Positions 10,869 through 31,632 of a DNA stretch of 32,775 nt are shown here, one piece after another. The notes under the pieces were generated by a model. It did no database searches. It was given only the letters and a program-made list of their open reading frames with translations, and had not been told where the DNA came from. Both the position numbers and the translations under genes were made by a program. Positions within the stretch are counted from its first letter, which is position 1. Each line of letters starts with the position of its first letter. The stretch is taken from the NCBI GenBank assembly GCA_003167215.1, contig PMTV01000068.1, forward strand, positions 1-32,775, in the 5' to 3' direction. This stretch comes from Acidobacteriota bacterium (GTDB lineage Bacteria > Acidobacteriota > Terriglobia > Acidiferrales > UBA7541).

Positions 10869-13139
10869 ATGATTGCAGCATCGTTAGCCAAGCGGCTGAA
10901 GTTTCCGCAATTCTCCGCCACTGTGTTGACGATTCTCGCCGGCGTCACCCTGCTCGCGAACGGATGCGGAAAACAAGCTACGCCCGCGACGCCACCTGCC
11001 GCGCCTTCACCATCGTCGCAGCTCCGCGTGTCCGCGTCCGCCGATGGCGTGGTGGTAGATACATCCACGGCCGAATTCGTGCTGAGACCGACGGGTTACG
11101 TCGCGGCGAGCCTGATATCAAACTACGGGAAACTTTCGCTAGATGATGCGGGCAGCGACCCCGGCATTCAGGTGATAGCTGGTGGGAAACAAATTTCAGA
11201 TGTTGCTTTCGATGTTGCCCACCCTCAAATCTCGGAGCCTAACGGCCGATTGGGAACAAAAGGGAAACGTATCGAGGTGAAGGGTAAGAATTCAGCGGGA
11301 GATATCGACGAATCTCTGATTGTGGAAGTGTACGACGACTTTCCCAACATAGCTCTGGTCTCCAGCACGATTCGGAATTCGGGCCGGAGAGAAGTGAAAC
11401 TCGACACGGTGAATCTGGACCGGCATCGCCTGAACGCATCTTTGGCAGACCCGTCGGCAGCTCCGCACGAAATGTGGTCCTTTCATGGAGCGAGTATCGA
11501 GTGGGGCAAAGATAACGTTTTTAAGATTCCGAAGAAATTCTCGCAACAAAATCAGATGGGCTCGCTCGTGGAAGTGAAAGGAGACCTGGGACGGGTAGGT
11601 GGCGGAATACCCGTCGTTGCGTTTTGGACGAATGCGGTAGGTGAAGCGGTTGGGCACGTCGAAACTCTTCCATTGGTGCTTTCCATTCCTGTGGAAACAC
11701 AACCCGACGGGCGCGTCGATGCCGCCGTTCATCTAACGCCGCACGCTACATTGCAGTCTGGCGAAGCCTATTCCACGCCTCAGACGTTCGTCGCCGTTTA
11801 CTCAGGCGATTACTACGAGCCGCTGCGAATTTATTCCGACGTGATCGACGGGGAAGGCCTGAAAAAGCCCGCGAACAATAGCGAAGACTATGCAGTGAGT
11901 TGGTGTGGCTGGGCCTACCTAGCCAACGTAACTCCCGCTCAAATGCTGGGCACAATTCCAAAATTGAAGGAAATGGGAATTCATTGGGCCACGCTGGACG
12001 ATCGCTGGTTCAACAATTATGGCGACTGGCAGCCGCGTAGCGATACGTTTCCCGATGATGAAATTCGCAAGATGGTTCAACAGTTTCATCAGCAGGGAAT
12101 TAAAGTGCAACTTTGGTGGCTGCCACTAGCAGTAGAAGATGGAGGGCCGGGATACGAATCACATCCGTACGGCGTCTCGGAGGTGGTGAAACAACATCCG
12201 GACTGGCTGATCCTGGACAAAAACGGGAAGCCCGCTCGCATGACGCGAAATCTGGCATCGCTGTGCCCTGCGCTGCCGGAGGTCCAGGCGTATTACAAGC
12301 AACTGACCGAGAGATTCATTCGAGATTGGGACTTCGATGGACACAAGCTCGACAATATTTATAGCGTGCCTGCATGCTACAACCCAAAACATCACCACAA
12401 ATCGCCGAACGACTCGGTCTACGCCATGGGCGAGATTTACAAAACGATTTTTGAAACGACGCGAGCGCTGAAGGCGGATAGCGTTACGCAGAGTTGTCCC
12501 TGTGGCACACCCCCGAGTATCGCGTGGCTGCGCTATATCGATCAGGCCGTCACGGCCGATCCGGTGGGTTCTGTACAGGTTCGTCAGCGAGTGAAAATGT
12601 ACAAGGCGCTGCTGGGCCCGAAGTCTGCAGTGTATGGAGATCATGTCGAGCTGACCCGCATAGCAAATCCGAACGGGAATGAAAAAGATCTCGGATCTGA
12701 TTTTGCTTCTACCGTGGGCACCGGCGGAGTTGTCGGTACAAAGTTCGCGTGGCCCGATTACGGCCCGAAGTTGAGCGACGTGTATCTGACACCTCAAAAA
12801 GAAGAGTACTGGAAAAAGTGGATCGGTCTCTACAACGACAAAATGCTTTCCCGCGGAACGTTCCGCAATCTTTACGTGTACGGCTATGACGTGCCCGAGG
12901 GATATGCGATCGAAAAAGACGGAGCCATGTATTACGCGTTCTTTGCGCCTGCCTCCGATGGCAAAGACACGAAACCAGCCACTTGGGCCGGGGAAATAGA
13001 GCTACGAGGGCTAGCGCCGGGGAAATATCACGTGGTGGACTACGTCAACGGTAAAGACCTGGGGTTTGTGACTGCGCCAGGCGCGCGGCTCGATGCCAGT
13101 TTCTCTGACCATTTGCTCATCGAAGTCACCAAACAATAG
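10869..13139 (+). CDS. GH36-like (alpha-galactosidase superfamily) lipoprotein, copy A
   Basis: This 756-residue protein starts with a signal peptide and a lipobox-like LANGC (lipidated C33), followed by a Pro/Ala/Ser linker, so it should be anchored outside the cytoplasm. A beta-rich N-terminal half (about 50-330) precedes a TIM-barrel half starting near WCGWAY (345-350), as in clan GH-D enzymes. KLD with D495 is the likely nucleophile; D558 or D564 (YIDQAVTADP) is the likely acid/base. A final beta domain ends the protein. GH36 members cleave alpha-galactosides, and some cleave alpha-N-acetylgalactosaminides; substrate here is unknown. The unusual CYNPKHHHKSP (503-513) just after the nucleophile recurs in copy B. 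It starts 109 bases after ctaG and ends convergently with the PfkB gene. Confidence 0.8.
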   Translation: MIAASLAKRLKFPQFSATVLTILAGVTLLANGCGKQATPATPPAAPSPSSQLRVSASADGVVVDTSTAEFVLRPTGYVAASLISNYGKLSLDDAGSDPGIQVIAGGKQISDVAFDVAHPQISEPNGRLGTKGKRIEVKGKNSAGDIDESLIVEVYDDFPNIALVSSTIRNSGRREVKLDTVNLDRHRLNASLADPSAAPHEMWSFHGASIEWGKDNVFKIPKKFSQQNQMGSLVEVKGDLGRVGGGIPVVAFWTNAVGEAVGHVETLPLVLSIPVETQPDGRVDAAVHLTPHATLQSGEAYSTPQTFVAVYSGDYYEPLRIYSDVIDGEGLKKPANNSEDYAVSWCGWAYLANVTPAQMLGTIPKLKEMGIHWATLDDRWFNNYGDWQPRSDTFPDDEIRKMVQQFHQQGIKVQLWWLPLAVEDGGPGYESHPYGVSEVVKQHPDWLILDKNGKPARMTRNLASLCPALPEVQAYYKQLTERFIRDWDFDGHKLDNIYSVPACYNPKHHHKSPNDSVYAMGEIYKTIFETTRALKADSVTQSCPCGTPPSIAWLRYIDQAVTADPVGSVQVRQRVKMYKALLGPKSAVYGDHVELTRIANPNGNEKDLGSDFASTVGTGGVVGTKFAWPDYGPKLSDVYLTPQKEEYWKKWIGLYNDKMLSRGTFRNLYVYGYDVPEGYAIEKDGAMYYAFFAPASDGKDTKPATWAGEIELRGLAPGKYHVVDYVNGKDLGFVTAPGARLDASFSDHLLIEVTKQ

Positions 13140-13170
13140 AAATTTCTAAGAAGCCCGAATTCGTTCACCT

Positions 13171-14109
13171 TCAGCGCTGGTCCAAATGGTCGTGGAAAAA
13201 TTGCTCGACGCTATCGCGATCCGTGAAAGCCTCTGTTCCGCCTTCGCGAGTGGTTGAGAAGGCCCCGGCGATGTCGGCGTATTCAAGACATTCGGCCGGG
13301 CTTGCGCCCTGCAGAAAACGATGGATGAAGCCGGCATCGAAGCTGTCGCCCGCACCGACCGAATCCACTGAAGCCACTCGCATCCCCTGGCGCCGCCATT
13401 CCTCAGAACCCTTGCGAGCGATAGCTCCCTGGGAGCCCAGTTTCACGACCACGAACTGACAGACTTGCGCAAGTTTTCCGATTGCTTGCACCAGGTCGTC
13501 GGTGCCGGCGATCTTTTTAGCCTCACGCTCGTTGGGGAAAAAAATATCGACATACGGCAGCACGTCCAGCAAATCTTTGCCCCACTTGCCTTCGGGATCA
13601 TCGTTGGTGTCAAGCGAGGTCGAAAGGCCCTTGGCTTTGGCTTCGCGAAACAAATCAACGATTTTCGGGCGAAGGGCTCTGTGCAAGAAGTACGACGAGA
13701 GATGCAAATGTCTCGACGAAAAAATGTAATCGAGATCGAGATCGACGTAGCTCAACTCGAACATCGTTCCCGGATAGGTCAGGATGAAACGATGTTCTGG
13801 CTGGGTGAGTATGACGGTCAGGCCCGTGGATGTCTTACTGGAAGTGAAAGAAACATGAGATAAATCAACACCGGCCGAGGCGAGCCAGTCGAACGCCATT
13901 TTTCCCAGAGCATCGGCTCCGATTTTTGAAACCATGCCGACGCCAGTGCCGAGTACGGAAAGATTGTGCGCAAAAATCGCCGACGAACTCCCCAGCGTCA
14001 AGCGAAACCCACCGATCAAGGATTCTTCTTCGGGCTTCAATTCTTTTGGCAAGCCGTAAAGAATCAGATCTGGATTGATTTCTCCGACCACGCACACGTC
14101 GAGAGACAT
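13171..14109 (-). CDS. PfkB-family (ribokinase-like) sugar kinase
   Basis: This 312-residue cytoplasmic kinase has the two-domain ribokinase layout. The C-terminal PfkB signature VGAGDSFDAGF is at 251-261 with catalytic base D255, and the N-terminal GG motif is LIGGFRLTLGSSSAI (31-45). It transfers phosphate from ATP to a sugar or sugar phosphate. Sequence alone does not separate a ketohexokinase-like, a 2-keto-3-deoxygluconate-like or another specificity. It is the third gene of the operon DeoR-SIS-PfkB, 13 bases after the SIS gene, and GAGG precedes the ATG at 14109. The plus-strand GH36 gene ends 31 bases away on the opposite strand; no clear terminator lies between. Confidence 0.88.
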   Translation of the reverse strand: MSLDVCVVGEINPDLILYGLPKELKPEEESLIGGFRLTLGSSSAIFAHNLSVLGTGVGMVSKIGADALGKMAFDWLASAGVDLSHVSFTSSKTSTGLTVILTQPEHRFILTYPGTMFELSYVDLDLDYIFSSRHLHLSSYFLHRALRPKIVDLFREAKAKGLSTSLDTNDDPEGKWGKDLLDVLPYVDIFFPNEREAKKIAGTDDLVQAIGKLAQVCQFVVVKLGSQGAIARKGSEEWRRQGMRVASVDSVGAGDSFDAGFIHRFLQGASPAECLEYADIAGAFSTTREGGTEAFTDRDSVEQFFHDHLDQR

Positions 14110-14122
14110 TCATGAACCTCGA

Positions 14123-15199
14123 TTAGCTTCTGCTCTCCAGCGTTACCACGCGCGATAAGTTGCGAGGTTCGTCAGGATTCAATCCCTTCTTAAGTCCCGT
14201 GTAAAATCCCAGGAGTTGCCCGGCGATCACACTCGCGGCTGCACGGGCGGCTTCAGGAATATCAAGAGACAACTCCACCGTATAGTCGGCAGCCTTGCGA
14301 ATCGCCGCGCTGCATGTATTTGCGACCACCAGCGTTGTGCCGCCCAGCGCCTTGATTTCTTCCAGGACGGCAACCTCAGCGTCGAACCCGGTTTCGCTGA
14401 TGATAAAGGTGATCAGAGTCTCGGGACTTACGATGGCTTTTGGTCCGTGCCTGAATTCCAGCGTATGAAAACACTGCGCGTAGGAACAAGACATTTCCTT
14501 CACCTTCAACATCGATTCTTGCGCGATTCCAAAGAACGGACCTTGGCCGAGGAAGACATAATCCGCGAATGTCCCCGCCTGCACCAGCGATTTTACCGTG
14601 GTTTGGAACTGGCCTAATCGCGCAGCAAATTGCTCGGGAAGCTTGTGAAGGCCGGTCAAGAAATCAGGGTGATCTCCGCGGATGGCGGCGAGCGACTGTA
14701 ATACGATGAGCATGGAAGTGAAAGATCTGGTCATTACTGTACTTTTCTCGTCGGCAGCATGCAGGATGATGTGGTCCGAAGAAAGTTTCTCGATGGGAGT
14801 GTCTGTACCGCAGGTTATCGCGAGAACTTTAAGATTGAGTACACCTTCCAAATACCTGGCTGCCTGCAGAATCTCCGAGGTATGCCCGGAGCGGGTAATC
14901 ATGACTGGCTGGCAGGGGACGGGAAGCAGCTGCGGAAAGAGCATGATTTCGGATGCAGGAATCGCGCGAGATTTCTCGCCCGTGAGAATGGACCAGCTCG
15001 CCGCCGCGCTTTGAGCCAAGTAGAAGCTGGAGCCGCAGCCGATGAACACCCACTCGATATTCCCGGGTAGGTTGTGAGCAAGCAAGCGCAATTCCGCACT
15101 TTTATCCATCGCTTGCAAACACGTAGTCCAGGTGGCGGGCTGGGAGAGAATCTCGGAAATGGTGTTAGCGCCGCTTGCTGATTTCAATTCCGTCAACAT
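14123..15199 (-). CDS. SIS-domain sugar-phosphate isomerase/deaminase, AgaS/GlmS-like
   Basis: The 358-residue product has two SIS domains. GCGSSFYLAQSAA and SGHTSEILQAARYLEG belong to the first, with the conserved DEKSTVMTRSFTSML; EFRHGPKA belongs to the second. These features are typical of the AgaS/GlmS C-terminal group, which isomerise or deaminate hexosamine and ketose phosphates (for example galactosamine-6-phosphate to tagatose-6-phosphate). The frame is open up to a TTG at 15232 that overlaps the DeoR stop, but the ATG at 15199 has a perfect GGAGG three bases upstream, so I choose it. It lacks the glutaminase domain of GlmS. Within this cluster it could feed tagatose-6-phosphate to the divergent FruK/LacC-like kinase. 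Confidence 0.87.
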   Translation of the reverse strand: MLTELKSASGANTISEILSQPATWTTCLQAMDKSAELRLLAHNLPGNIEWVFIGCGSSFYLAQSAAASWSILTGEKSRAIPASEIMLFPQLLPVPCQPVMITRSGHTSEILQAARYLEGVLNLKVLAITCGTDTPIEKLSSDHIILHAADEKSTVMTRSFTSMLIVLQSLAAIRGDHPDFLTGLHKLPEQFAARLGQFQTTVKSLVQAGTFADYVFLGQGPFFGIAQESMLKVKEMSCSYAQCFHTLEFRHGPKAIVSPETLITFIISETGFDAEVAVLEEIKALGGTTLVVANTCSAAIRKAADYTVELSLDIPEAARAAASVIAGQLLGFYTGLKKGLNPDEPRNLSRVVTLESRS

Positions 15200-15228
15200 T
15201 GCCTCCACAATTCCGCAAGCATTAAAGT

Positions 15229-15990
15229 TCAAACAACGATGGTCTTGATATGTGCCGCGCGGAGAGCGCGCAAGTTTTTGGCAGAGATTTTCCTGTCCGT
15301 AATGGTGTGATGCACCGCCGAAATGGGAGCAATGAATGAAAGGCTGCGCCGGCCGAATTTACTCGAATCGCATACGATAATCGTGGTCTTGGCATTTTCC
15401 ATCATGACGCGGTTCACTCGTGCTTCCAGAAGGTTCGGAGTGGTGAGACCATATTCCAGATCGAAACCGTCCACCGCGAGCAACAAAAGATCGGCGGTCA
15501 CGTGACGTAAGGAATCCTCGGCGAGCGGTCCTACTAGCGAAAACGAATTTCTTCTTAGCACGCCTCCCGTTAAAATGACCTCGACGTCGGTGCCGGCCAG
15601 CTCAGCCGCGATATTGACGGCGTTGGTGATCACCGTGAGATTCCGAACATGCTTGATCGCGCGCGCCACCGCTGTAGTAGTAGTGCCTGAATCAAGGATT
15701 ACGACTTGGCCCGGTTGAACGAAGCGCGCGGCCGCCGCGGCGATCTTGAGTTTTTCGCGGCGATGCAATTGCTCTTTCTCGTGCAGCGTAGGATCCCTTA
15801 AGGCGGACGCGTCCATCGGAAGCGCGCCGCCGTGGGCCCGTTGAATTCGGCCCATTTGGTGAAGGGATTCCAAGTCTTTGCGAATCGTGATGAGAGAAGT
15901 GGAGAAGCGCCGTGCAAGGTCTTTGACAACAACCCGTCCATCGCGTTGGGTCAATTCAAGAATTTTTCGGCGCCGTTCTTCTGCCAGCAT
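15229..15990 (-). CDS. DeoR-family transcriptional regulator 1
   Basis: This 253-residue repressor-type protein has an N-terminal winged helix (about 1-57), opening MLAEERRRKILELTQ, with recognition helix near TIRKDLESL, and the DeoR end signature RAHGGA. The C-terminal sugar-phosphate-sensing domain shows VILDSGTTTTAVARAI (about 100-115) and LTVITNAVNIAAEL. DeoR proteins usually release DNA when a pathway sugar phosphate binds. It is the first gene of the operon with the SIS and PfkB genes and is divergent from the FruK/LacC-like kinase, so it probably controls both directions from 15991-16084. Confidence 0.92.
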   Translation of the reverse strand: MLAEERRRKILELTQRDGRVVVKDLARRFSTSLITIRKDLESLHQMGRIQRAHGGALPMDASALRDPTLHEKEQLHRREKLKIAAAAARFVQPGQVVILDSGTTTTAVARAIKHVRNLTVITNAVNIAAELAGTDVEVILTGGVLRRNSFSLVGPLAEDSLRHVTADLLLLAVDGFDLEYGLTTPNLLEARVNRVMMENAKTTIIVCDSSKFGRRSLSFIAPISAVHHTITDRKISAKNLRALRAAHIKTIVV

Positions 15991-16005
15991 GGTTTATGGA
16001 TGTGC

Positions 16006-16038
16006 TTTCGAATTATTACTTTTTGTTACTATTTCGAA
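16006..16038. promoter_or_regulatory. Candidate DeoR operator: paired TTTCGAA repeats
   Basis: The 94 bp spacer between the divergent DeoR 1 and kinase genes contains TTTCGAA at 16006-16012 and again at 16032-16038, 26 bp (about 2.5 turns) apart. Between them lies an A/T-rich stretch with two AGTAA units ten bases apart on the minus strand. The layout suits an operator bound by a DeoR dimer or tetramer. A TTGACA at 16053-16058 has no good -10 at the proper distance. The pairing is seen in the sequence; the operator role is inferred. Confidence 0.4.
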
Positions 16039-16084
16039 CTTAGCGTGATAGCTTGACACAAGTGCACTTCGGGAGCAAGGGCTG

Positions 16085-17044
16085 ATGGCCGATTCAACGA
16101 TCGTTTGCGTAAGCGCAAATCCTGCGATGGACCGCCGGTTGCACGTTGCATCCCTCGAGGCCGGTGAAGTGAATCGCGCTAAAAGCGCCCGCGGCCTGGC
16201 CGGAGGCAAGGCCGCGCACGTGGCGATGGCTGCTCACGCGCTAGGAGCGAATGCGAGCTGGATCGGATTTCTGGGAGGGGCGATCGGCGAAGAGTGCGCT
16301 CGGCAGTTGGAATCAATGGATATTGAAGTGGTTGCGGTGCGCACGACCACTAGCACTCGCGTGAATCTGGAGGTGATCGAAGACTCCGGAAAGGTGACGG
16401 AGATACTTGAACCCGGCGCCGCGCCGACCCGGGAAGAAACCGCCGAATTTGTGCGGGTGTGTTCCGAGCGAATACGGGAAGAGGGGAAGGCGTCGCTGCT
16501 CGTCATTTCCGGGAGCTTACCTTCAGGCATCTCACCAGATTTTTATGTTTCTTTAATTGAAGCTGCGCGAAATGCGGGCGCGAGAGTCTTTATCGATACC
16601 AGCGGCGAGGCTCTGGGCGAGAGCGTGAAAGCCAATCCAGACTTGGTGAAAGTGAATCGCGCCGAGGCCGAAGCTCTGCTGGGAAGATCGCTGAAGTCGA
16701 GACAGGAAACAACTGAGGCCGCTCGTGAAATCATTCGACGAGGATCGAGCAGCGCCGCGATCACATTGGGGAAAGACGGTCTAGTCTGGATCGAGCATCG
16801 AGACGGACCAGTGTGGATAGCGCGTCCCCCCAGCGCGAGAGTGGTCTCGACGGTCGGTTCCGGGGACGCAACTCTGGCAGGATTCGCTTACGCTGCAATT
16901 CAAGGGATCGTTGGCGAAGAGGCAGTACGACTCGCCGCCGCTTGTGGCGCCGCCAATTGCGCGGCAAGCTCGCCGGGCATGATCAATTTTGCAGACGCGC
17001 AAAGACTGCTTCCGCAAATCGAAGTGCAGAAAATGACTTTCTAG
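16085..17044 (+). CDS. 1-phosphofructokinase/tagatose-6-phosphate kinase-like PfkB kinase (FruK/LacC group)
   Basis: This 319-residue kinase has SANPAMDR near the start (10-17), ISGSLPSGI (141-149) and TVGSGDATLAGF (256-267) with catalytic D261. The SGSLPxG motif and the NPAxD start are typical of the FruK/LacC/PfkB2 group, which make a fructose- or tagatose-1,6-bisphosphate from a monophosphate. The substrate-side GGK motif reads GLAGGKAAHVA, compared with the more common GGKGINVA. Its product would be a substrate for the aldolase encoded at 22976. The start at 16085 is preceded by GGGAGCAAGG. Convergent with the amidohydrolase gene; 47 bases separate them. Confidence 0.85.
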   Translation: MADSTIVCVSANPAMDRRLHVASLEAGEVNRAKSARGLAGGKAAHVAMAAHALGANASWIGFLGGAIGEECARQLESMDIEVVAVRTTTSTRVNLEVIEDSGKVTEILEPGAAPTREETAEFVRVCSERIREEGKASLLVISGSLPSGISPDFYVSLIEAARNAGARVFIDTSGEALGESVKANPDLVKVNRAEAEALLGRSLKSRQETTEAAREIIRRGSSSAAITLGKDGLVWIEHRDGPVWIARPPSARVVSTVGSGDATLAGFAYAAIQGIVGEEAVRLAAACGAANCAASSPGMINFADAQRLLPQIEVQKMTF

Positions 17045-17091
17045 ACGCAAGGTAGTGGCCGAGCGGTTCCTGGCAATAACATTTGGCAGTT

Positions 17092-18234
17092 TTACTTCGA
17101 AGAGGAGCTCATTCCAGGGATCCACTGTACGGCGTTGTCATGATAAATTCGGCGGAGGACTGTTTCGGACAAACCGAGGCCATGAACTTGACGGCCGTTG
17201 TATTGGAAGGTGTCGTTGGTGGCTAAAAATCTCCAGTCTCTTGCGTAAGTCTCTTGCCACTCCTTTAGCGCGTCCGCTGTGGATTCATCAGGTAGAAATT
17301 CCAGATCGGTGCCGTAGAGCACTCTGGTCTGATACTTGATCAGAAAGTTCCGCACTTTTTCCCGCGGCTGAATCATCAAATATTCTATTCTCGCCGCAGT
17401 ATCAACTGCAAAATTCGGATAGCGATCGAATCGCTTCGCGATTTCATCCACATCGGTTTCCATGCTTCCCAGGTGCGCGCCGACCACCCGCAGTTTCGGG
17501 TTTTCAGCCAGCAGGTGATCGCGCGCCGCTAAAATGACCTCCTTGCGAGGATGATCGGGATGCAAATACATGTACCACTGAGGATTTTCCTTGTAGTAGT
17601 CGTAGTCCGGGCTGTCAGGATTCGGCGGTTGCCAGCAGGAGGAAGGCTCGGCAAGGTGCGCGACAAGAGTTTTATTGTCGCCCGCGATCGCCCGGTAAAT
17701 GGGTTCCAAAGCCGGATCATCAGGCATGACGTATTTTCCGTCTGGCGTTTTTAGTTCCATGCCGATGTTCTTCCAGATTTTCACCGCAACGGCACCCTGG
17801 GCAAATTCCCGGCGAAGTTGTTCTATCGTTTTTCGCGCGAAATCCGTTCGACTTAAATCAAATGGATCGAAGGTGACGCACAATCGTGCATGGTTCTGAC
17901 TCGCTTGAACAAACCCCTTGGCGCGCGCAATTTCTGTATCCAATTGGCCATAAATTCCGTGGTTATCGGCCACGCAAATATCCAAAACGTTCAATCGAAG
18001 ATGCGTCATCAGATCACTAAACTGAGGATCGGTCTTGAATGCATGAACGTGAGTATCGATCGGCTCCAGCGCGGCGAACGCTTGCAGCAGGTCCCTTGGG
18101 CTGTCTGGTCGAAGTGCTTCAAGGGTTGCTGCATGCAATGCGAGGAAACCAAACGAATGTACGTAGGTCGCCGCGACCGTCGCGATCCCGGCCGCCAACA
18201 ACAAGACGAGCACTTTCTTGAAATCTACACGCAT
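17092..18234 (-). CDS. Membrane-anchored amidohydrolase (amidohydrolase 2 / PF04909-like)
   Basis: This 380-residue protein has a hydrophobic N-terminus (about 8-25) without a clear cleavage site, so the catalytic domain is probably anchored on the periplasmic side. The metal-site pattern of the amidohydrolase superfamily is visible: H62 and H64 (IDTHVH), K152 (VKIWKN), H193 (VAHLAEPS), H254 (GAHLGS) and D310 (YGTD). PF04909 members include lactonases, decarboxylases and amidases; the reaction cannot be chosen from sequence. It is the second gene after DeoR 2, nine bases downstream, so it should be controlled with the glycan operon. A role on a lactone or acyl group of the imported sugar is a guess. 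Confidence 0.85.
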   Translation of the reverse strand: MRVDFKKVLVLLLAAGIATVAATYVHSFGFLALHAATLEALRPDSPRDLLQAFAALEPIDTHVHAFKTDPQFSDLMTHLRLNVLDICVADNHGIYGQLDTEIARAKGFVQASQNHARLCVTFDPFDLSRTDFARKTIEQLRREFAQGAVAVKIWKNIGMELKTPDGKYVMPDDPALEPIYRAIAGDNKTLVAHLAEPSSCWQPPNPDSPDYDYYKENPQWYMYLHPDHPRKEVILAARDHLLAENPKLRVVGAHLGSMETDVDEIAKRFDRYPNFAVDTAARIEYLMIQPREKVRNFLIKYQTRVLYGTDLEFLPDESTADALKEWQETYARDWRFLATNDTFQYNGRQVHGLGLSETVLRRIYHDNAVQWIPGMSSSSK

Positions 18235-18243: not shown

Positions 18244-19092
18244 CTAGTGTTTAGCAGGCCCGGAACGCGCCCGCGTCCTTCCCGGCTCATGTCCATTCGT
18301 ATCATGTGGTTGATCCCGCAGGTCCGCCAGGATTAGTTCGACACCGGCTTCGCGCAGGGGACGTAGATACTTGGGGTCTGTGGCGGAATCGGTGACAAGA
18401 ATATCGACGTCCGTGATGGGACCAACGTAGGCGAAGCCCTGATTCCCGAATTTGCTATGGTCCGCCAGTGCAATGCTGACGCGTGCGGACTTCAAGATCA
18501 TCTTTTTAATCTGCGCTTCGGCCTGGCTCGCAGTGGAAATTCCGTACTGGGGATCGATGGCGCTCACACCCAATACCGCTTTGTCCACGCGTATTTCCGA
18601 CAAGGCTCGCTGCGCCCAGACTCCCGAAAGATAAAATACGTCCTTCTGAAGTTCGCCCCCTGTTGAGATGACCGAGACGTGCTGGCTGCGCTGGAATTCA
18701 TCCACAATCGGCGGCGAATTTGTGATTATGGTCAGCCTGTTGCGATGCAACAGGCGGCGGGCGAGTTCGTAGACTGTGGTGCTGCCTTCCAGGAAAACGG
18801 TCTCACCGTCCAGGATGAGGCGCTCCGCTTCTCGCGCGATGGCCTGTTTTTCGGCTCGATTGCTGCGCCCCAGCGCCTCGTAGGAAGGCTGAAAATTGGT
18901 GCTGGAGGTGCGTGAGACGGCGCCGCCGTGCGAACGCAGCAGCACGCCTTCTTTTTCCAAAACGGCGAGATCGCGCCGGACTGTAGCCGCTGTGACCCCC
19001 AGATCGCGTATCAGATCGGAGGCCGTAACAGTTCGCTCGCGCGACAGAATTTCGCGTATGCGAAACCTCCGTTCTTCTGCCAGAAGGCTCAT
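18244..19092 (-). CDS. DeoR-family transcriptional regulator 2
   Basis: This 282-residue protein has the winged helix MSLLAEERRFRIREIL with recognition helix TAATVRRDLAVL and RSHGGAV at its end (about 54-60). The sensor domain has VFLEGSTTVYELARRL and LTIITNSPPIV, the DeoRC sugar-phosphate site. Its last 20 residues are a basic Arg/Pro tail not usual for the family. GGAGCAG precedes the ATG at 19092. It is divergent from the TonB-dependent receptor gene, so it is the prime candidate regulator of the 12 kb operon to its right. It differs from DeoR 1 in length and recognition helix, so the two probably sense different ligands. Confidence 0.92.
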   Translation of the reverse strand: MSLLAEERRFRIREILSRERTVTASDLIRDLGVTAATVRRDLAVLEKEGVLLRSHGGAVSRTSSTNFQPSYEALGRSNRAEKQAIAREAERLILDGETVFLEGSTTVYELARRLLHRNRLTIITNSPPIVDEFQRSQHVSVISTGGELQKDVFYLSGVWAQRALSEIRVDKAVLGVSAIDPQYGISTASQAEAQIKKMILKSARVSIALADHSKFGNQGFAYVGPITDVDILVTDSATDPKYLRPLREAGVELILADLRDQPHDTNGHEPGRTRARSGPAKH

Positions 19093-19310
19093 TCAGGCTG
19101 CTCCGTCTCCATTAAATGGCCCGAAAAGCACGCGGATTGTGCCACAGATTAGGAGAAATTGATCCCAAAATTACAAAATACACCAAATTAGATAAAAAAA
19201 GTTGACAAACAAACACAATAGGGCTAAGTACGTCAACGATTGGGGTTTTGTCCAACACTCAGCCAGGGTAAGAAAACTTGATACAGCATTGCCTAGGGGA
19301 GGGGTTACCT
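19093..19310. promoter_or_regulatory. A/T-rich divergent control region between DeoR 2 and the TonB-dependent receptor
   Basis: This 218 bp gap contains an A/T-rich block (about 19165-19220) unlike the surrounding coding DNA, with repeated ACAAA units. TTGACA at 19202-19207 is a perfect -35 for the plus strand; 17 bases later stands TAAGTA (19225-19230), a poor -10. GCTAAGT followed by CG two bases later (19223-19232) also occurs on the minus strand of the other DeoR control region (16035-16044). A strong AGGGGAGGGG ribosome binding site ends the region. Confidence 0.4.
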
Positions 19311-22907: not shown

Positions 22908-22975
22908 AGTCTGAAGGTAGGATTCCCCCAAGTTCGTGGCGATATATTCGAAGCGGGCGTCGAAAGGTGCAGTCT

Positions 22976-23791: not shown

Positions 23792-24975
23792 AAGCGGCAA
23801 GCGCTCGCTCGGGACATGTGTCGATACGACGTGTCGCAAGCGTTTTGGATGGCCGCTCCGGCTATCGATTGAAGGCGCCCTGGGGCCATGTTTCCGTACT
23901 GGAGGGCGGCGGCCACATTTGCGAGTTGAATCTGAACGAGTGTGATGGGGTCAATCCGCTGTGGCGTCCGCAGTGGAAAACGATTGATCCTTACAAATAT
24001 AATGTCGCCAAGCATTCGCGCACGTACGGGTCTCTTCCGGATGGAAGGTTGCTCGCGGGAATCGCGGGGCACAACCTGAGTTTCGACTACTTCGGACCTC
24101 CTTCCAAGGACGAAGTGGCCGCTGGACACAGTACGCACGGGGAAGCACCCTCAGTGAAATGGCAATTCAAGAGCGCATTGGGCACGTCGCCTGCGACTCT
24201 TCACTGTCGTGCTTTGTTGCCGGATGCTCAAATCAAATTTGTGCGAGAGATTTCAGCCGACGAGCGAAACCCGGTGGTCTACTGCGAGGAGACGGCAACG
24301 AATCTAGGTACTTTTGATCGGCCAATTTCCTGGAACGAGCACGTGACTTTCGGGCCCCCCTTTGTCCAGTCTGACGTAACGCTGTTCGATATGCCTGCAA
24401 CCCGCGCAAAAACCTGCCCAGCTTCGTATAGCTCGCGGCCTCTGTTGAAAGCTAATGCTGAGTTTGCTTGGCCGATCGCGCCTGCGGCCCGTGGCGGGTG
24501 TTTGAATCTGCGAACTGTGCCACAAGCCAAATTTGAGCATTACACCGCGCAATTGCTTGACCCCAAACTCAAGGTGGCCTTCATATCGGCCTGCAACCCT
24601 CCCGCTGGTCTTCTCGTGGTCTATTTGTTTCATCGAGCGGACTTTCCCTGGGTAGGGAATTGGGTCGAACGCTTTCACCAGTCGCATGCGCCATGGAACG
24701 GAGGAACCTTTTGTCGAGGCCTTGAGTTCAGCACCACGCCATTCGCAATGCCTCGGCGACAAACGGTGGAACAGCATCGGATGTTTGGAGAAACGGTCTA
24801 TCGCTGGCTTCCCGCGAAGTCCGAACTGAATGTTCGATACGTGATCCTGCTTTTTCGGGTTCCAACTGACTTTCGCGGTGTTAAATCTGCAACGGTTGAA
24901 GGGCGCGAGGCCAAAGTTATCGAGACCGGGCCTCATTCGCGCAAGATTTCTACTCGCGTGAAGCGGTTTCTCTAA
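23788..24975 (+). CDS. Aldose 1-epimerase-like (galactose mutarotase superfamily) protein
   Basis: This 395-residue protein looks like a beta-sandwich mutarotase-type protein, similar to the DUF4432 and YihR-like groups. H117 (THGEAP) and H185 (NEHVTFGPPF) stand where the superfamily has conserved histidines, and the product is almost all beta strands with no signal peptide, so it should act in the cytoplasm. Mutarotases interconvert alpha and beta anomers so the next isomerase or kinase is not rate limited. Its start overlaps the aldolase stop (ATGA), and its stop shares one base with the next gene's ATG (TAATG). The conserved acid/base glutamate is not certain to me, so another sugar-binding role is possible. 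Confidence 0.7.
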   Translation: MKAASARSGHVSIRRVASVLDGRSGYRLKAPWGHVSVLEGGGHICELNLNECDGVNPLWRPQWKTIDPYKYNVAKHSRTYGSLPDGRLLAGIAGHNLSFDYFGPPSKDEVAAGHSTHGEAPSVKWQFKSALGTSPATLHCRALLPDAQIKFVREISADERNPVVYCEETATNLGTFDRPISWNEHVTFGPPFVQSDVTLFDMPATRAKTCPASYSSRPLLKANAEFAWPIAPAARGGCLNLRTVPQAKFEHYTAQLLDPKLKVAFISACNPPAGLLVVYLFHRADFPWVGNWVERFHQSHAPWNGGTFCRGLEFSTTPFAMPRRQTVEQHRMFGETVYRWLPAKSELNVRYVILLFRVPTDFRGVKSATVEGREAKVIETGPHSRKISTRVKRFL

Positions 24976-27281
24976 TGCTAAGGGTTCCAGCGATGCGCAG
25001 TGGAAATACGATTCCGAAGTCGCCCAACATTCGTCGGTTAAATGTCCTGGTGGAGACACCTTTCCAGCAGTTCCGCTGTCTATTGCTTCTTGCTGTTTTT
25101 CTGGTGATCGGAACTGCGGCCTGTCAGAAATCTCCCACGGCGCTGGCGGACCCGACAAAGCCGCAGTCGGCGATATCAATAAGCACTCAATCGGATGGCA
25201 TTTCGATCAAAACGCCGACCGCGGAATTTCAGCTTCTTCCCTCGGGCTATCTTCGCGGCTACTTGAACGTGAATGGCGGCGAGTTGACGATAGACGATCC
25301 GCAGGGGAAGGAGGCAAGTGATCCCGATTACGTTATGATCGATGGCAAAGAGCTCCGTGATTTCGAAATCGATATTGCTCATCCAAAACTTTCCGATGCT
25401 TCCCGCCGCCTCGGCCCATTGGGTAAGCGGATCGACCTCCAGGGCGTTAGCAGATCCAGGCCAGAAATCGAGAAGACGGTTTCGGTGGAGTTTTACGACA
25501 ACTTCCCGTCACTTGCGTTGACTACGGCCTCGTACAAAAATATCGGCAAGACTCCTGCAGCGCTCGAAACGGTGGTCACGCAGCGGCACGAACTGAACGC
25601 ATCTTTGATTGATTCTGCAGTTCGTCCCTTCGCGATGTGGTCATTCCACGGTTCGAGCGAGAAATGGGGAAAGGATAACGTGGTTTTGATTTCCAAGGAT
25701 TTCTCTCGAGCGAATCCCATGGAGCAGGTCATGAAAGGAGACCCTGGCACGGGAGGCGGCATCCCGGTTGTGGCCTTTTGGACTGCCGAGATGGGAGAAG
25801 CGATCGGCCACCTGGAAACTCTGCCGCTCACACTGGCAATTCCCGTTCACGTTGACGCCGGCGAACGCGTCGACGCCTCGATAGAGTTGAAGCCCGAACA
25901 AACGCTCGAGCCCGGTGAAGTCTATTCTACGCCCGTCAGTTTCCTTTCAGTATTTCACGGAGATTTCTACGAGCCGCTGCGAATGTACTCCGACGCGCTG
26001 GCCGCGCAAGGCTGGAAAATCCCAAAACCAAATTCCGCGGATTACGAAGCGAATTGGTGTGGATGGGGTTATGAGCTGAAATTCACGCCCGCGCAAATGA
26101 TCGGCACCATCCCAAAACTGCAGGAAATGGGATTGAAGTGGACAACGCTCGATGCCGGCTGGTTCGACATCAGAGGGGATTGGCTGCCTCGCGCCGGCCT
26201 GGGCGTCGATGGCATCAAGAAAATTGTTGATGCCTTTCACGCGGCGGGGCTTCGAATCACGCTGTGGTGGATTCCCATTGTCGTCGAAGACGGACAGGGA
26301 ATCGACATGCTGGACAACCACACTTACAAACTTGCGGATGTTGTAAAAGAGCATCCCGACTGGCTGATGCTGGACAAGGACGGCAAACACGCCCGCATGA
26401 CGACGGGCCTTGCAGGTTTGTGCCCGGCAGTTCCGGAAGTTCAGGAATATTATCGTGAACTAACGAAACGTTTCATAAGCGACTGGGGATTCGACGGCCA
26501 CAAGCTGGATTTTGCGTTTACCGTGCCGCCCTGTTACAACCCAAAGCACCATCACAAATCTCCTTATGACTCGACGCAAGCAATGGGCGAGATTTATAAG
26601 ATCATTTTTCAGACGACACGTGCCTTGAAACCCGAGAGCGTCACGCAGAGTTGCCCTTGCGGAACTCCACCCAACATGGCCTGGCTTCCTTTCATCGATC
26701 AAGCCGTGACGGGTGATCCCGTAGGTTCCGCGCAAGTGAGGCAGCGAATCAAAATGTACAAAGCTCTTCTGGGACCTTACGCCGCGGTTTACGGCGATCA
26801 CGTTGAACTCACTAAGATCTCCGGAGTTAACTCAAATAACGAACAGGACATCGGACGCGATTTTGCATCCACCGTGGGAGTGGGCGGTGTGCTGGGCACC
26901 AAATTCACGTGGCCGGATTACGGACCGAAACTCAAGAATGTCTATCTCACCACCGAAAAGGAAGCTCTCTGGAAGAAATGGATCGCGATTTACAATCAGA
27001 AAATGCTGTCGCGCGGCGATTTTCGGGACCTGTACACTTACGGGTACGATGTTCCGGAAGCTTATGCCGTGGAGAAGGATGGCAAAATGTATTACGCGTT
27101 CTTCTCGCCGGTCGCGGCATCCAAGTGGCACGGAACAATCGAATTGCGCGGACTTTCGCCCGGCAAATATCGCGTAACCGACTATGAAAACGGCCGCGAG
27201 CTGGGAACGGTCGACAGCGACAATCCCAAACTCACGACGCAATTTCGGGAACATTTGCTGCTCGAAGCCGCAAAAGAGTAG
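24975..27281 (+). CDS. GH36-like (alpha-galactosidase superfamily) lipoprotein, copy B
   Basis: This 768-residue paralogue of the 10869 gene has the same domain order. The hydrophobic signal ends with a lipobox-like GTAAC (C50), after a longer basic N-terminus; ATG at 24993 is an alternative start. WCGWGY begins the barrel at 361. The KLD nucleophile candidate is D512, and D575 or D581 is the acid/base candidate. CYNPKHHHKSP and QSCPCGTPP are identical to copy A. Differences near the active site, such as LPFID in place of LRYID and FAF in place of NIY after the nucleophile, suggest a shifted substrate or linkage. It lies in the middle of the receptor-led operon. Confidence 0.8.
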   Translation: MLRVPAMRSGNTIPKSPNIRRLNVLVETPFQQFRCLLLLAVFLVIGTAACQKSPTALADPTKPQSAISISTQSDGISIKTPTAEFQLLPSGYLRGYLNVNGGELTIDDPQGKEASDPDYVMIDGKELRDFEIDIAHPKLSDASRRLGPLGKRIDLQGVSRSRPEIEKTVSVEFYDNFPSLALTTASYKNIGKTPAALETVVTQRHELNASLIDSAVRPFAMWSFHGSSEKWGKDNVVLISKDFSRANPMEQVMKGDPGTGGGIPVVAFWTAEMGEAIGHLETLPLTLAIPVHVDAGERVDASIELKPEQTLEPGEVYSTPVSFLSVFHGDFYEPLRMYSDALAAQGWKIPKPNSADYEANWCGWGYELKFTPAQMIGTIPKLQEMGLKWTTLDAGWFDIRGDWLPRAGLGVDGIKKIVDAFHAAGLRITLWWIPIVVEDGQGIDMLDNHTYKLADVVKEHPDWLMLDKDGKHARMTTGLAGLCPAVPEVQEYYRELTKRFISDWGFDGHKLDFAFTVPPCYNPKHHHKSPYDSTQAMGEIYKIIFQTTRALKPESVTQSCPCGTPPNMAWLPFIDQAVTGDPVGSAQVRQRIKMYKALLGPYAAVYGDHVELTKISGVNSNNEQDIGRDFASTVGVGGVLGTKFTWPDYGPKLKNVYLTTEKEALWKKWIAIYNQKMLSRGDFRDLYTYGYDVPEAYAVEKDGKMYYAFFSPVAASKWHGTIELRGLSPGKYRVTDYENGRELGTVDSDNPKLTTQFREHLLLEAAKE

Positions 27282-27294
27282 GCTGGCGCGCTGA

Positions 27295-28836
27295 ATGAGC
27301 CTCCTAGCCATCGACATCGGGTCAAGCCAATGCAAAGCAGTCGTCTTTGCCGTGTCCGGCGCAGTAGTTGCGAGGAGCGTCTCCCCTTACTCTCCTGATT
27401 TTCCTCAGCCGACCTTTGCGGAAATGGATCCGGGAAAATTCTGGAATGCCGTTTGTGAGACGTCTCGCGAGGTAACCCGCGATTTAATCCATGACCCAGT
27501 GCAGGCCTTGTGCCTCAGTTCGCACGGAGAAACTTTTATTCCGGTGAACGCTCGGGGCGAGGCAATCGGCCCCGCAATACTGAATATCGATAACCGAGCG
27601 AGCCACGAAGCGAACTGGTGTGAGAACGCAATCGGAGCGCGCCGCATTTTCGAAATAACAGGGCTGGTTGTTCACCCGATGTACCCGATACCCAAGATTC
27701 TGTGGCTACGCCAGCACCGGCCCGAAATTTATTCCAAAGCGATTCGATTCCTCGGCGTAACGGATTTTGTTCACGTCAAACTTGGACTTCCGCCATACAT
27801 CGGATATTCGCTGGCTTCGCGATTCCTCGCCTTTGACGTGATTGGCGACTGCTGGTCTGAAGAAATTTTGAATGCGGTCGGCTTGACCGACGATCAGCTT
27901 CCGCTTGCCGCTCCGGCGGGAGCGATGGCCGGAACGCTTAACTCCGGAGCCGCGAACGCCCTTGGGGTAGGTGTCGGCACGCCTGTCGTCGTCGGCGGCC
28001 ACGATCAGGCGTGCGGAGCTTTGGGCGTCGGTGTGATTAGGTCCGGCCGCGTGTCGGATTCGATGGGAACTTATGAGTGTCTTGTGGCAGCGTCGGATGA
28101 GCCGAGGCTGGGTGAGGGAGCGTTTTCCGCTCGCCTGAACTCTTACAGCCATGTTGTTCCGAGAAAGTTTCTCACTCTTGCATATTTTCCGTCCGGGATC
28201 ATGGTTCAGTGGTTCCGCGATCTGATTTATGGCCGGGGCATACAGTTGAAACACTCAAAGTTTGAAGCGAACGAATCCGATGAGTATTCGCTGCTGGAAA
28301 GAGAATGCACAGCCCTTCCAACCGGCCTGTGTATTACACCGCACCTGTTCGGGACATGTAATCCTGATTTTGATCCGCGCGCTCGCGCGACCATTTTTGG
28401 GCTCTCTTCAGAATCGAACCGAAGCCAAATCTACCAGGGAATCCTCGAAGGAATCGCCTGCGAGCTCGCGCAGGTGGCGGAGCTGCTGGCGAACGCGAGT
28501 GGCGAATTCAAGGATCTTTATGTTATTGGTGGTGGAACGCGTTCACCACTGGGACTGAAACTGCGAGCGGCCCTGACAGGGTGCCGCTTGCACGTGATGC
28601 AATGCGATGAAGCTGTTTGCCTGGGTGCCGCGATACTGGCTGGCGTAGCGGCCGGAGCCTATACGAGAGTTGTGGAGGCCGTGGACCAGGTCATCCGCGA
28701 AAAGGAAGTCGTCGAGCCGGACGCGCAGCTCTCGGCTTCGTACGCGTCCCAGTTGAAACAATATCGGCGCTTATGTGCCGCCTTAAAAATGTTACGTGAT
28801 GTAAATTCTCGCGGCCAATCGGAAGAGGAGAAATAG
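27295..28836 (+). CDS. FGGY-family carbohydrate kinase
   Basis: This 513-residue kinase of the hexokinase/actin fold begins with the phosphate-binding loop AIDIGSSQCKAVVF (5-18). GGHDQACGALGVGV near residue 232 is the FGGY C-terminal boundary motif with its catalytic aspartate, and VIGGGTRSPLGLKLRA near 409 is the adenosine motif. The family phosphorylates ketoses such as xylulose, fuculose, ribulose and tagatose, or glycerol; residues do not decide between them. Its last base is shared with the GTG of the isomerase gene, and kinase plus isomerase are almost surely consecutive steps. The start lies 13 bases after the GH36 gene. Confidence 0.88.
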   Translation: MSLLAIDIGSSQCKAVVFAVSGAVVARSVSPYSPDFPQPTFAEMDPGKFWNAVCETSREVTRDLIHDPVQALCLSSHGETFIPVNARGEAIGPAILNIDNRASHEANWCENAIGARRIFEITGLVVHPMYPIPKILWLRQHRPEIYSKAIRFLGVTDFVHVKLGLPPYIGYSLASRFLAFDVIGDCWSEEILNAVGLTDDQLPLAAPAGAMAGTLNSGAANALGVGVGTPVVVGGHDQACGALGVGVIRSGRVSDSMGTYECLVAASDEPRLGEGAFSARLNSYSHVVPRKFLTLAYFPSGIMVQWFRDLIYGRGIQLKHSKFEANESDEYSLLERECTALPTGLCITPHLFGTCNPDFDPRARATIFGLSSESNRSQIYQGILEGIACELAQVAELLANASGEFKDLYVIGGGTRSPLGLKLRAALTGCRLHVMQCDEAVCLGAAILAGVAAGAYTRVVEAVDQVIREKEVVEPDAQLSASYASQLKQYRRLCAALKMLRDVNSRGQSEEEK

Positions 28837-30218
28837 TGATCCAGCCAACCGTCGGATTTATCGTTTACGGCGTTCACAAAGATGGATTGAAAGATCCGAT
28901 GGGAACGCCGTTTATCGATGATGCAGTCATTCGGCGTTCTAAAAAAGCGTTAAGCGCCGCGGGGTTACAGATTGTCGATCATGATGTGGTAGTGGCAAGC
29001 AAAAAAGAAGCCGAGGCCGCTCTAAAAAAGATGAAGTCCAATGATGCGGTGGACGCTGTGATCTTGTTTTCCGGAACTTGGGTTTGGGCAGCACATCTTG
29101 TCGCCGCCATCCGTGATTTTGCCGCGACGGGCAAAGCCGTCTTGCTGTGGACGCATGACGGCTCGCAGGGTTGGCGGCCCGTTGGCGGTCTGGTGATGCA
29201 CGGAGGATTGCTCGAAATTGGCTTGCAGCATAAATTTGTGTACGGCAGCGCCGATGACCGAGAGGCGGTCGAAAGCATCGTCAGCTACGTGCGCGCGGCT
29301 CATCTGAAAAATATTCTCAACATGGGAACCGTCGGAGCATTTGGCGGGCGCGGCATGGGCCAGACCTGCGGAGCTGCCGACCCATCGCAATGGATGCGAA
29401 TGTTCGGTTTGGACATCGATTCGCGAGATACAACGCAGCTCATCAAAGCGGCCGAGCACATCTCGGCTCAGAAAATCTCGGAGCTAGAACCGCGCCTGAA
29501 GAAGCTGTTCGGGACAGCACCGGAGAAAACCGTCGTTAACGAAAGATCAATCCGATTGTATCTTGCGCTCAAAGAACTAATCGAAGCGGAAAAATTCGAT
29601 TTTTACACCATTCAATCATTTCCGGGGCTGGGTGATGATTACGCTGCCACGTGTTTTGCGCAAAGCATGATGCTCGAAGACGGCTACGGCGCCTCAACGC
29701 TCGGCGATCTGAATACCGCGCTCACAGTGTTTCTTCTCACGAAATTAAGCGAGGAGCGCGTCTATTACGGAGACCTGCAGCACATCGACAAACGCACGAA
29801 GGAAATCAAAATAATTGGAGATGGCGCATGTCCTCCCTCCCTTGCGGGCAAGCTAGGTCCGGCAGGTTTTGCGACGCACGGAATCCCCACAGAAGGAAAA
29901 GCGGGCGGCGTTTCCGTAAAACTGATTTGCAAAGTTGGCGAAGGCGTTCTGGCGCGCCTAGGCCGATTGAATGGAATATTTCAAATGGCCATCACGCGCT
30001 GCACCATTTTTGAGCCGCCGGCCGATCAAGTTGAGCGCCGCCTGAACGAGTGCGGAATTCCTTTCTGGCCTCACGGGTTCGTCACCGCTCATTGCGATAT
30101 CGACGCTCTGATTCAGAGCTGGACCAATGAATATGCCTGCCTGGGCTACGGTGCGGATCTCTACCCCGCGTTGCGAGATTTTTGTGAACTCACCGGCATC
30201 AAACCCATCCTGCTCTGA
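28836..30218 (+). CDS. L-fucose/L-arabinose isomerase-related ketol isomerase (COG2407-like)
   Basis: This 460-residue protein resembles FucI/AraA-type isomerases, which turn an aldose into a ketose with a divalent metal. It has an alternating alpha/beta N-terminal part, FYTIQSFPGLGDDYAATC, the acidic segment GDLNTAL (about 289), GDGACPPSLAG (about 328) and WPHGFVTAHCD (about 411) with the histidine of the C-terminal barrel. The usual Cys-Glu-x-Asp metal motif appears as Thr-Leu-Gly-Asp, so one expected glutamate seems missing. The GTG start follows GGAAGAGGAG at 28821-28830. Relatives act on fucose, arabinose and sulfoquinovose; with GH36-like hydrolases, galactose to tagatose is a reasonable guess only. 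Confidence 0.8.
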   Translation: MIQPTVGFIVYGVHKDGLKDPMGTPFIDDAVIRRSKKALSAAGLQIVDHDVVVASKKEAEAALKKMKSNDAVDAVILFSGTWVWAAHLVAAIRDFAATGKAVLLWTHDGSQGWRPVGGLVMHGGLLEIGLQHKFVYGSADDREAVESIVSYVRAAHLKNILNMGTVGAFGGRGMGQTCGAADPSQWMRMFGLDIDSRDTTQLIKAAEHISAQKISELEPRLKKLFGTAPEKTVVNERSIRLYLALKELIEAEKFDFYTIQSFPGLGDDYAATCFAQSMMLEDGYGASTLGDLNTALTVFLLTKLSEERVYYGDLQHIDKRTKEIKIIGDGACPPSLAGKLGPAGFATHGIPTEGKAGGVSVKLICKVGEGVLARLGRLNGIFQMAITRCTIFEPPADQVERRLNECGIPFWPHGFVTAHCDIDALIQSWTNEYACLGYGADLYPALRDFCELTGIKPILL

Positions 30219-30258
30219 CCCGGGACCATGACTCGGACGATCCCGCCGGACTACCGCA

Positions 30259-31632
30259 ATGAAAACTGAAACGCAGCCTCACTTGACGCGCGGCTTCGGT
30301 TTGCTTCAAGCGACTGCCCTAAACATGATCAACATGATTGGTGTTGGCCCCTTCATTACAATTCCGCTATTGATGGCTTCCATGGGCGGTCCACAATCCA
30401 TGCTGGGCTGGCTGACGGGCGCGCTGATAGTGATTTCCGACGGTCTGATCTGGAGCGAATTGGGGGCGGCGCTGCCAGGCTCCGGCGGCAGCTATCATTT
30501 TCTTCGCGAGGCCTACGGTCACCAAAGTTGGGGCCGTCTCATGGCGTTTCTCTTCATCTGGCAATTCGTTCTAAGCGGCCCCTTGGAAATCGCATCCGGC
30601 ATGATTGGATTCGGAAACTATTCTTCTTATCTTTGGCCGGGGTTGACCGCTCGAGGCCAGCAATACATTGCGGTTGCCGCAGGCCTCGTAGTTTTGTTCC
30701 TCTTGTGCCGGCAGATCAAGTTCTTGAGCAAAATTACCGTGACCCTTTGGGTTGGCACGGTGCTTGCGATGTTAGCTGTCATTGTCACCGGCCTTCCGCA
30801 CTTCAATGTTCATAGGGCGTTCGATTTTCCATCAGGAGCATTCGCTTTTAATCGTGGGTTCGTGCTCGGTCTCGGCAGTGCCACTCTGATCGCCGTCTAC
30901 AACTATCTCGGATATTACGATGTATGTTACATCGGGGATGAGGTGAGGAATCCCTCTTACGTAGTGCCCCGCTCCATTCTGTATTCGCTCGCGATTTGTT
31001 GCGTAGGATATTTAGCGTTGCATCTCGCCATAATCGGGGTAGTGCCGTGGCGGGAAGGAATTCATTCGAACTTCATCGTTTCTGATTTCATGGAACGTCT
31101 TTATGGCAGAGGGGCTGCGATCGCGATAACAATCTTGATCCTCTGGTCGGCGTTCGGATCGGTGTTCGCGCTTCTTCTGGGTTATTCGCGAATCCCTTAT
31201 GCGGCTGCGATCGACGGCTATTTCTTCCGCCCGTTCGCGCAATTGCATCCCACGAAAAATTACCCTCGAGTTTCCCTGTTGGTTTTGGGCGGTGTATCGA
31301 TTGCAGCCGCGTTCCTCAAGCTTGATCAGATCGTGAGCGCATTGATTACTACCAGAATTCTGGTGCAGTTTCTGGGGCAGCTATTTGCCATCCCACTTTT
31401 GCGGAAGAAGTTGCCTGACAGCGCGCGACCGTACAAGATGTGGTTTTATCCCGTGCCCATGATCATCGCTTTTTTTGGATGGGGGTACGTTTTTCTGACT
31501 TCGGGTTGGCTCTACATCAAGATTGGTTTATTGACGTTACTAGTCGGCGTGCTGGTTTTTTTCGTTTGGGCGAAGTGGAAGGGCACCTGGCCCTTCAAAT
31601 CCAGCCAAGAGCATGAGTCAGCGCCACGTTAA
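30259..31632 (+). CDS. APC-family permease
   Basis: This 457-residue inner membrane transporter has about 12 hydrophobic helices. GVGPFITIPLLM in the first helix, PGSGGSYHFLREAYG after the second, and GDEVRNPSYVVPRSI mid-protein are classical APC (amino acid-polyamine-cation) signatures. Most relatives carry amino acids, often by proton symport. Its place as the last gene of a sugar operon, 40 bases after the isomerase, suggests it moves the sugar freed in the periplasm, or an amino-sugar or amino acid linked to the glycan. No ABC, MFS or SSS sugar transporter is present. The start ATG at 30259 has only a weak ribosome binding site. Confidence 0.85.
   Translation: MKTETQPHLTRGFGLLQATALNMINMIGVGPFITIPLLMASMGGPQSMLGWLTGALIVISDGLIWSELGAALPGSGGSYHFLREAYGHQSWGRLMAFLFIWQFVLSGPLEIASGMIGFGNYSSYLWPGLTARGQQYIAVAAGLVVLFLLCRQIKFLSKITVTLWVGTVLAMLAVIVTGLPHFNVHRAFDFPSGAFAFNRGFVLGLGSATLIAVYNYLGYYDVCYIGDEVRNPSYVVPRSILYSLAICCVGYLALHLAIIGVVPWREGIHSNFIVSDFMERLYGRGAAIAITILILWSAFGSVFALLLGYSRIPYAAAIDGYFFRPFAQLHPTKNYPRVSLLVLGGVSIAAAFLKLDQIVSALITTRILVQFLGQLFAIPLLRKKLPDSARPYKMWFYPVPMIIAFFGWGYVFLTSGWLYIKIGLLTLLVGVLVFFVWAKWKGTWPFKSSQEHESAPR

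Follow-up and report, generated by a model that had tools for sequence, protein, structure and literature searches.

The DNA analyzed here, referred to as the window, is a stretch of 32,775 nt (contig C43, 1-32775) from the 3.78 Mb genome (68 contigs, 95.7% complete) of a soil member of the Acidobacteriota, and positions 10869 to 31632 carry a set of sugar-catabolism genes. A first-pass annotation of the sequence had listed 14 genes at this locus, among them two GH36, two PfkB, one SIS and two DeoR genes. All 14 reading frames are open at or near the positions it gave, and families and gene order agreed with that list for all but the mutarotase-like protein, for which the reading frame stood and the family did not. 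The locus consists of two modules rather than one chain. Module A comprises GH36a, PfkB1, the SIS protein and DeoR1, and probably PfkB2 as well. Module B contains the TonB-dependent receptor, a class I aldolase, the mutarotase-like protein, GH36b, an FGGY kinase, a sugar isomerase and an APC permease, with DeoR2 and an amidohydrolase nearby. The genes are as follows.

10869..13139, + strand: GH36a, FpGalNase-like lipoprotein of module A (Pfam Melibiase 7.4e-16; canonical 'DD' in the C6 pocket, LDDRW)
13171..14109, - strand: PfkB1, ribokinase-like sugar kinase, proposed galactosamine kinase (Pfam PfkB 6.6e-48)
14123..15232, - strand: SIS protein, GlmD/GlmS/AgaS-like, proposed galactosamine-6-phosphate deaminase/isomerase (NCBIfam, all models below cut-off)
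15229..15990, - strand: DeoR1, AgaR-type regulator (NCBIfam AgaR 263.9 bits, cut-off 260)
16085..17044, + strand: PfkB2, 1-phosphofructokinase (1-PFK)/LacC-type phosphohexose kinase, proposed tagatose-6-phosphate kinase (TIGR03168 273.4 bits, cut-off 216.4)
17092..18234, - strand: amidohydrolase (PF04909, Amidohydro_2) with N-terminal hydrophobic anchor (Pfam 7.2e-13)
18244..19092, - strand: DeoR2, regulator proposed for module B (Pfam DeoRC 7.1e-48)
19278..22907, + strand: TonB-dependent receptor with CarboxypepD_reg domain (Pfam PF25183 2.9e-234, PF13620)
22967..23791, + strand: class I (Schiff-base, DhnA/archaeal fructose-bisphosphate aldolase-like) aldolase (DeoC/LacD family, Pfam DeoC 1e-30; PDB MJ0400 3.5e-41)
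23788..24975, + strand: mutarotase-like protein, 395 aa, without a named family (DUF4432, hhalign probability 56)
24975..27281, + strand: GH36b, FpGalNase-like lipoprotein of module B with LDAGW and Arg400 (PDB 9awt 1.7e-72)
27295..28836, + strand: FGGY kinase, xylulokinase-like, proposed ketose 1-kinase (Pfam FGGY_N 5.3e-46; XylB 269.7 bits, cut-off 380)
28836..30218, + strand: sugar isomerase of AraA/FucI fold (AlphaFold2 and Foldseek; SftI 75.3 bits, cut-off 700)
30259..31632, + strand: APC permease, proposed inner-membrane sugar importer (Pfam AA_permease_2 5e-34)

Judged by spacing and strand, the transcription units are GH36a alone (+), PfkB1-SIS-DeoR1 (-), PfkB2 (+), DeoR2-amidohydrolase (-), and the TonB receptor followed by the run from aldolase to APC permease (+). 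The five genes from aldolase through isomerase overlap or are separated by 13 bp, and gaps are 13-40 bp when the permease is counted. The aldolase reading frame as first listed (from 22763) begins 145 bp inside the TonB gene, and the true start is probably the GTG at 22967 or 22976. A neighborhood comparison found modules A and B apart in other genomes, and the single linear pathway for one sugar that the first-pass annotation had inferred is thus not supported. Under the regulation that we propose, DeoR1 would control module A and DeoR2 module B.

Module B is a real, conserved cassette. The comparison of gene neighborhoods that the first-pass annotation had suggested as a check bore out the association of isomerase, FGGY kinase and aldolase: among acidobacterial isomerase loci of at least 8 kb, the FGGY gene lay within the flank in 37 of 38 and the aldolase gene in 31 of 38, and an FGGY gene was near the isomerase in 58-60 of the 80 loci listed across all phyla. 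The usual companions of the isomerase are the FGGY kinase, the aldolase, the mutarotase-like protein and DeoR2, with the amidohydrolase often joining them. About 20 loci have a DeoR2 orthologue upstream of the aldolase, FGGY and isomerase genes, and APC permease orthologues (86-91% identical) are divergent from DeoR2 in seven loci. The mutarotase-like protein is conserved in about 20 acidobacterial loci; in loci from other phyla it is replaced by a DUF4432 protein or by a second mutarotase-like type, judged by eye from sequence.

The isomerase was found in a scan of GTDB species genomes that detects close relatives only, and the best 80 of 171 loci, 67-88% identical, come from more than 10 phyla by label, including Acidobacteria, Armatimonadetes, Chloroflexi, Clostridia, Spirochaetes, Lentisphaerae, Bacteroidetes, Planctomycetota, Atribacteria and KSB1. 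Among 297 evenly drawn Acidobacteriota the gene is rare, and a close copy was present in no other genome. Outside Acidobacteriota, identity to the window protein is about 70% for the isomerase, 33% for FGGY and 30% for the amidohydrolase, and the isomerase is thus unusually constrained. Together with its conserved kinase and aldolase partners, it points to a sugar apparently consumed by many bacteria of soils and sediments. The best curated match is the sulfoquinovose isomerase model SftI (NF048012), far below its cut-off, and the AraA model NF002795 gave 35.1 bits against a cut-off of 622. The AlphaFold2 model (predicted local distance difference test score of 89.8) was closest in Foldseek to L-arabinose isomerases (template-modeling (TM) score of about 0.8), and then to L-fucose isomerases. 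Two isomerase loci per assembly were also seen (L037 and L065, L035 and L043; PKUV01, JAIQFF01), and some genomes hold two copies of module B.

The aldolase beside the isomerase differs by clade: 28 acidobacterial loci carry the class I DhnA type, and 10 loci outside the phylum a class II enzyme (PF01116). The occupation of one slot by two non-homologous aldolases argues for aldol cleavage, and the way in which partners are exchanged around a single isomerase agrees with a sequence of isomerization, phosphorylation and aldol cleavage, a class of chemistry that we consider fairly likely for this branch. In the class I enzyme, K259 (numbering of the long reading frame) is conserved. The class II enzymes retain the metal and dihydroxyacetone phosphate (DHAP) site motifs and share an invariant KVNIWTxxER, compared with K[VI]Nxx T and other residues in the enzymes compared, which would be compatible with a substrate lacking a distal phosphate. 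The Glu of this motif presumably falls where the Giardia fructose-bisphosphate aldolase has the Arg that serves as its distal-phosphate ligand; the literature searched gave no account of the residue roles in the Giardia enzyme, and this part of the aldolase reading is based on the motif comparison. As with the kinase in the window, XylB was the top model for FGGY proteins in acidobacterial and other loci, with scores under its cut-off.

Additional information about the sugar comes from the two GH36 enzymes, which are 58% identical to each other. GH36b is homologous to FpGalNase across the catalytic domain, and alignments revealed that both enzymes retain the equivalents of FpGalNase K461, D463, C513 and D532 (PMC11762096). 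The D346-D347 pair is intact in GH36a, and its second Asp is Ala in GH36b. In GH27, this second Asp leaves space for the hydroxymethyl group at C6, and beta-L-arabinopyranosidases have Glu, Ile or Tyr in its place (PMC5853685, PMC4598101). The aligned TmGalA motif, IDDAY, was used to carry this role over to GH36. We take the transfer to hold through homology within clan GH-D. The Asp was absent from 33 of the 34 isomerase-linked GH36 enzymes, namely 10 of 11 of the FpGalNase type, including GH36b of the window, and 23 of 23 of the TmGalA type, which forms another GH36 subfamily and carries a PKD domain; in unlinked GH36 it was kept in 9 of 10. Six residues further on, Arg is found in all 8 Ala-type GH36b and all 23 TmGalA-type enzymes (31 of the 33 lacking Asp), and enzymes with DD have Tyr or Glu there, with Arg in none. 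The bulky replacements of Asp suggest a missing C6, and the Arg near the pocket suggests an anionic group at C6. By this residue pattern, only a few sugars come into question for branch B, namely beta-L-arabinopyranose, D-fucose, or one with an anionic C6, for example sulfofucose.

Module A looks like a set for galactosamine use through tagatose-6-phosphate, in line with the tagatose-6-phosphate-like SIS/PfkB branch recognized earlier. The NCBIfam scores of the SIS protein were all below cut-off (GlmD 139.9 bits, cut-off 580; GlmS 130.1; AgaS 103.7, cut-off 529). PfkB2 exceeded the cut-off of the 1-PFK subfamily (273 over 216) and scored 137 for the LacC equivalog, against 410, and DeoR1 exceeded that for AgaR. 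The combination of a GH36 with DD motif, PfkB1 and SIS recurs in three other acidobacterial genomes (control loci L114, L117 and L118), one of which also has a class II FBA-like gene. Galactosaminidase activity is described for FpGalNase, and module A contains no recognized gene for an N-acetyl deacetylase, both of which fit galactosamine use.

Altogether, we read the locus as two catabolic branches, A for galactosamine and B for a galacto-sugar altered at C6, that both end in triose phosphates, and we give this reading even chances. In branch A, GH36a would release galactosamine outside the cytoplasm, PfkB1 would phosphorylate it to galactosamine-6-phosphate, and the SIS protein would deaminate and isomerize this to tagatose-6-phosphate, which PfkB2 would convert to tagatose-1,6-bisphosphate for cleavage by an aldolase. 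In branch B, GH36b would release an alpha-galacto-configured sugar with C6 absent or altered, which may enter via the TonB receptor and the APC permease and have its ring opened by the mutarotase. The AraA-fold isomerase would then turn the aldose into a ketose, FGGY would phosphorylate it at C1, and the Schiff-base aldolase would cleave the ketose-1-phosphate to DHAP and an aldehyde. The predicted hydrolysis of an alpha-galacto-type glycoside outside the cytoplasm, as annotated at first, is supported by the analysis. With its two modules side by side, the locus suggests that a natural polymer holds both galactosamine and the branch B sugar.

Several observations weigh against this reading. 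The genes, their order and conservation, the exchange of non-homologous aldolases and the active-site residues are observed, and every reaction in both branches, like the transport steps and the sugars, is predicted from sequence; phosphorylation at C1 by FGGY is assumed, since xylulokinase, the closest family, acts on C5. For the mutarotase-like protein, Pfam and NCBIfam gave no match and no family is firm, its similarity to DUF4432 being weak, and genes that would process the aldehyde are not conserved across the isomerase loci. The model assigns no step to the amidohydrolase: D60/H62/H64, H193, H254 and D310 are conserved and the gene is present, mostly adjacent, in 39 of the 80 loci, and a fold search gave generic superfamily matches alone (TM about 0.45) and a PDB sequence search no match. 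One GH36 near an isomerase has DD (L038:1-1374), and a Phe-type GH36 lies beside an APC permease in a genome 84% complete in which the isomerase was not detected (L112). The GH36 sequences are related rather than independent, and Fisher p values therefore overstate significance; additionally, all 80 isomerase loci come from metagenome-assembled genomes.

Amongst the specific proposals for branch B, the release of L-arabinose from beta-L-arabinopyranosides and its conversion through L-ribulose-1-phosphate to DHAP and glycolaldehyde is possible but doubtful. The isomerase fold is nearest L-arabinose isomerase, and the replacement of the C6-Asp by Glu, Leu or Tyr parallels the Glu, Ile and Tyr of GH27 beta-L-arabinopyranosidases, but the Ala of GH36b is not bulky and the Arg would go unexplained. 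Furthermore, the metal-ligand positions that we take to be those of AraA are not obviously kept in the isomerase, and arabinose is common, yet the cassette is rare. A canonical AraA over cut-off in 1 of 40 isomerase-bearing genomes might seem to favor L-arabinose, but AraA is scarce across the phylum anyway (8 of 199), and its absence is uninformative.

The degradation of plain D-galactose, in which an AraA-like isomerase yields tagatose for phosphorylation and aldol cleavage in place of the Leloir pathway, appears unlikely. AraA-type enzymes do convert galactose to tagatose, and an engineered route of this kind supports growth of E. coli (PMC10101011); also, GalK was not detected in the window's own genome. 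However, GalK is present in 32 of the 40 other isomerase-bearing acidobacterial genomes, compared with 91 of 199 in the phylum, and branch B therefore does not behave as a Leloir substitute, contrary to the earlier hint that missing Leloir genes might account for it. The linked GH36 also lack the Asp accommodating C6, which, with the GalK counts, makes plain galactose improbable; neither galactose nor N-acetylgalactosamine, the sugars named at first, is supported for the FGGY branch. The window's own genome, in addition, holds two GalT-family genes. These uridylyltransferases (G000:C43:72857-73117, L108; G000:C15:51588-52124, L107) have the motifs HTHSQ and HAHSQ, unlike what we take to be the classical GalT motif, HPHxQ.

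A further proposal, that branch B resembles the sulfoglycolytic Embden-Meyerhof-Parnas (sulfo-EMP) pathway and takes a C6-sulfonated galacto-sugar (sulfofucose) through the isomerase, FGGY in place of YihV/SqiK, and the aldolase to DHAP and sulfolactaldehyde, is also improbable. SftI is the best curated isomerase match, but at 75 against 700; two GH36 lineages have an Arg next to the C6 pocket, but the bulky Leu, Phe or Glu of many linked GH36 better suit a missing C6. Sulfo-EMP and sulfo-EMP2 likewise differ by a class I versus a class II aldolase (PMC9594981), but a YihU- or YihP-like gene was found in 0 of 80 loci (at 1e-5, other reductase and exporter families not being tested). A YihQ-like sulfonate site in GH36b was also considered, and the alignment with YihQ was uninformative (hhalign probability 0.3). 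Similarly a long shot is the broader proposal of a widespread and so far undescribed branch B pathway for a galacto-sugar anionic at C6 (e.g., sulfofucose or a uronic or sulfo analogue). It would combine an isomerase of a new family with an FGGY 1-kinase and interchangeable class I/II aldolases, and would be fed by GH36 enzymes of two subfamilies that independently gained Arg by the C6 pocket. Finally, although the several transcription units and the separate occurrence of the modules might suggest that unrelated sugar genes came together by chance, this is highly improbable given the adjacency conserved over many loci and the lack of any FGGY or DhnA-type aldolase match in 222 kb of acidobacterial control DNA.

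The predicted route of module B was not matched to any described catabolic pathway and is apparently undescribed, which agrees with the initial remark that FucI/AraA-type isomerase, FGGY kinase and aldolase form no standard pathway; the literature searched gave no match for D-fucose, L-ribulose-1-phosphate, or FGGY and isomerase pathways. The L-fucose and L-rhamnose pathways (FucI/RhaA, FucK/RhaB, FucA/RhaD), like the predicted branch B, use an aldose isomerase, an FGGY kinase and a ketose-1-phosphate aldolase giving DHAP, but the branch B isomerase is of a separate AraA-fold family and its aldolases belong to DhnA class I or to the FBA-type class II enzymes rather than to PF00596. Sulfo-EMP and sulfo-EMP2 share with branch B a mutarotase (putative in branch B), a FucI-type isomerase, a kinase for C1 (assumed in branch B), a class I or II aldolase, an alpha-glycosidase and a DeoR-type regulator; branch B has FGGY for PfkB/PfkA and GH36 for GH31, with no sulfolactaldehyde reductase or exporter detected. 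Branch A resembles the tagatose-6-phosphate pathways (Aga/Gam, Lac) in its AgaS-like SIS protein, its kinase of the 1-PFK subfamily, putatively LacC-like, and its AgaR-type regulator, and differs in the separate PfkB beside SIS, with no phosphotransferase system, deacetylase or LacD orthologue seen. Both GH36 enzymes share catalytic-domain homology and catalytic residues with FpGalNase from Flavonifractor plautii, but GH36b lacks the second Asp of the DD pair and has Arg, and a deacetylase partner was not identified beside it.

Other genes were also seen around the isomerase. In some acidobacterial loci with a TmGalA-type GH36 (L034:11417-12841 and the same position in L069), it is followed by a Gfo/Idh/MocA oxidoreductase (~475-500 aa), which weakly matches the BT_2158 glycoside 3-dehydrogenase family. 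A NagB-like deaminase and another PfkB kinase lie near the isomerase in 8-9 loci (L106, L104, L083, L037, L054), perhaps as an analogue of the SIS and PfkB1 module. In the window itself, positions 32270-32773 (- strand) encode part of a repetitive protein rich in Lys, Ala, Pro and Glu, truncated by the window end.

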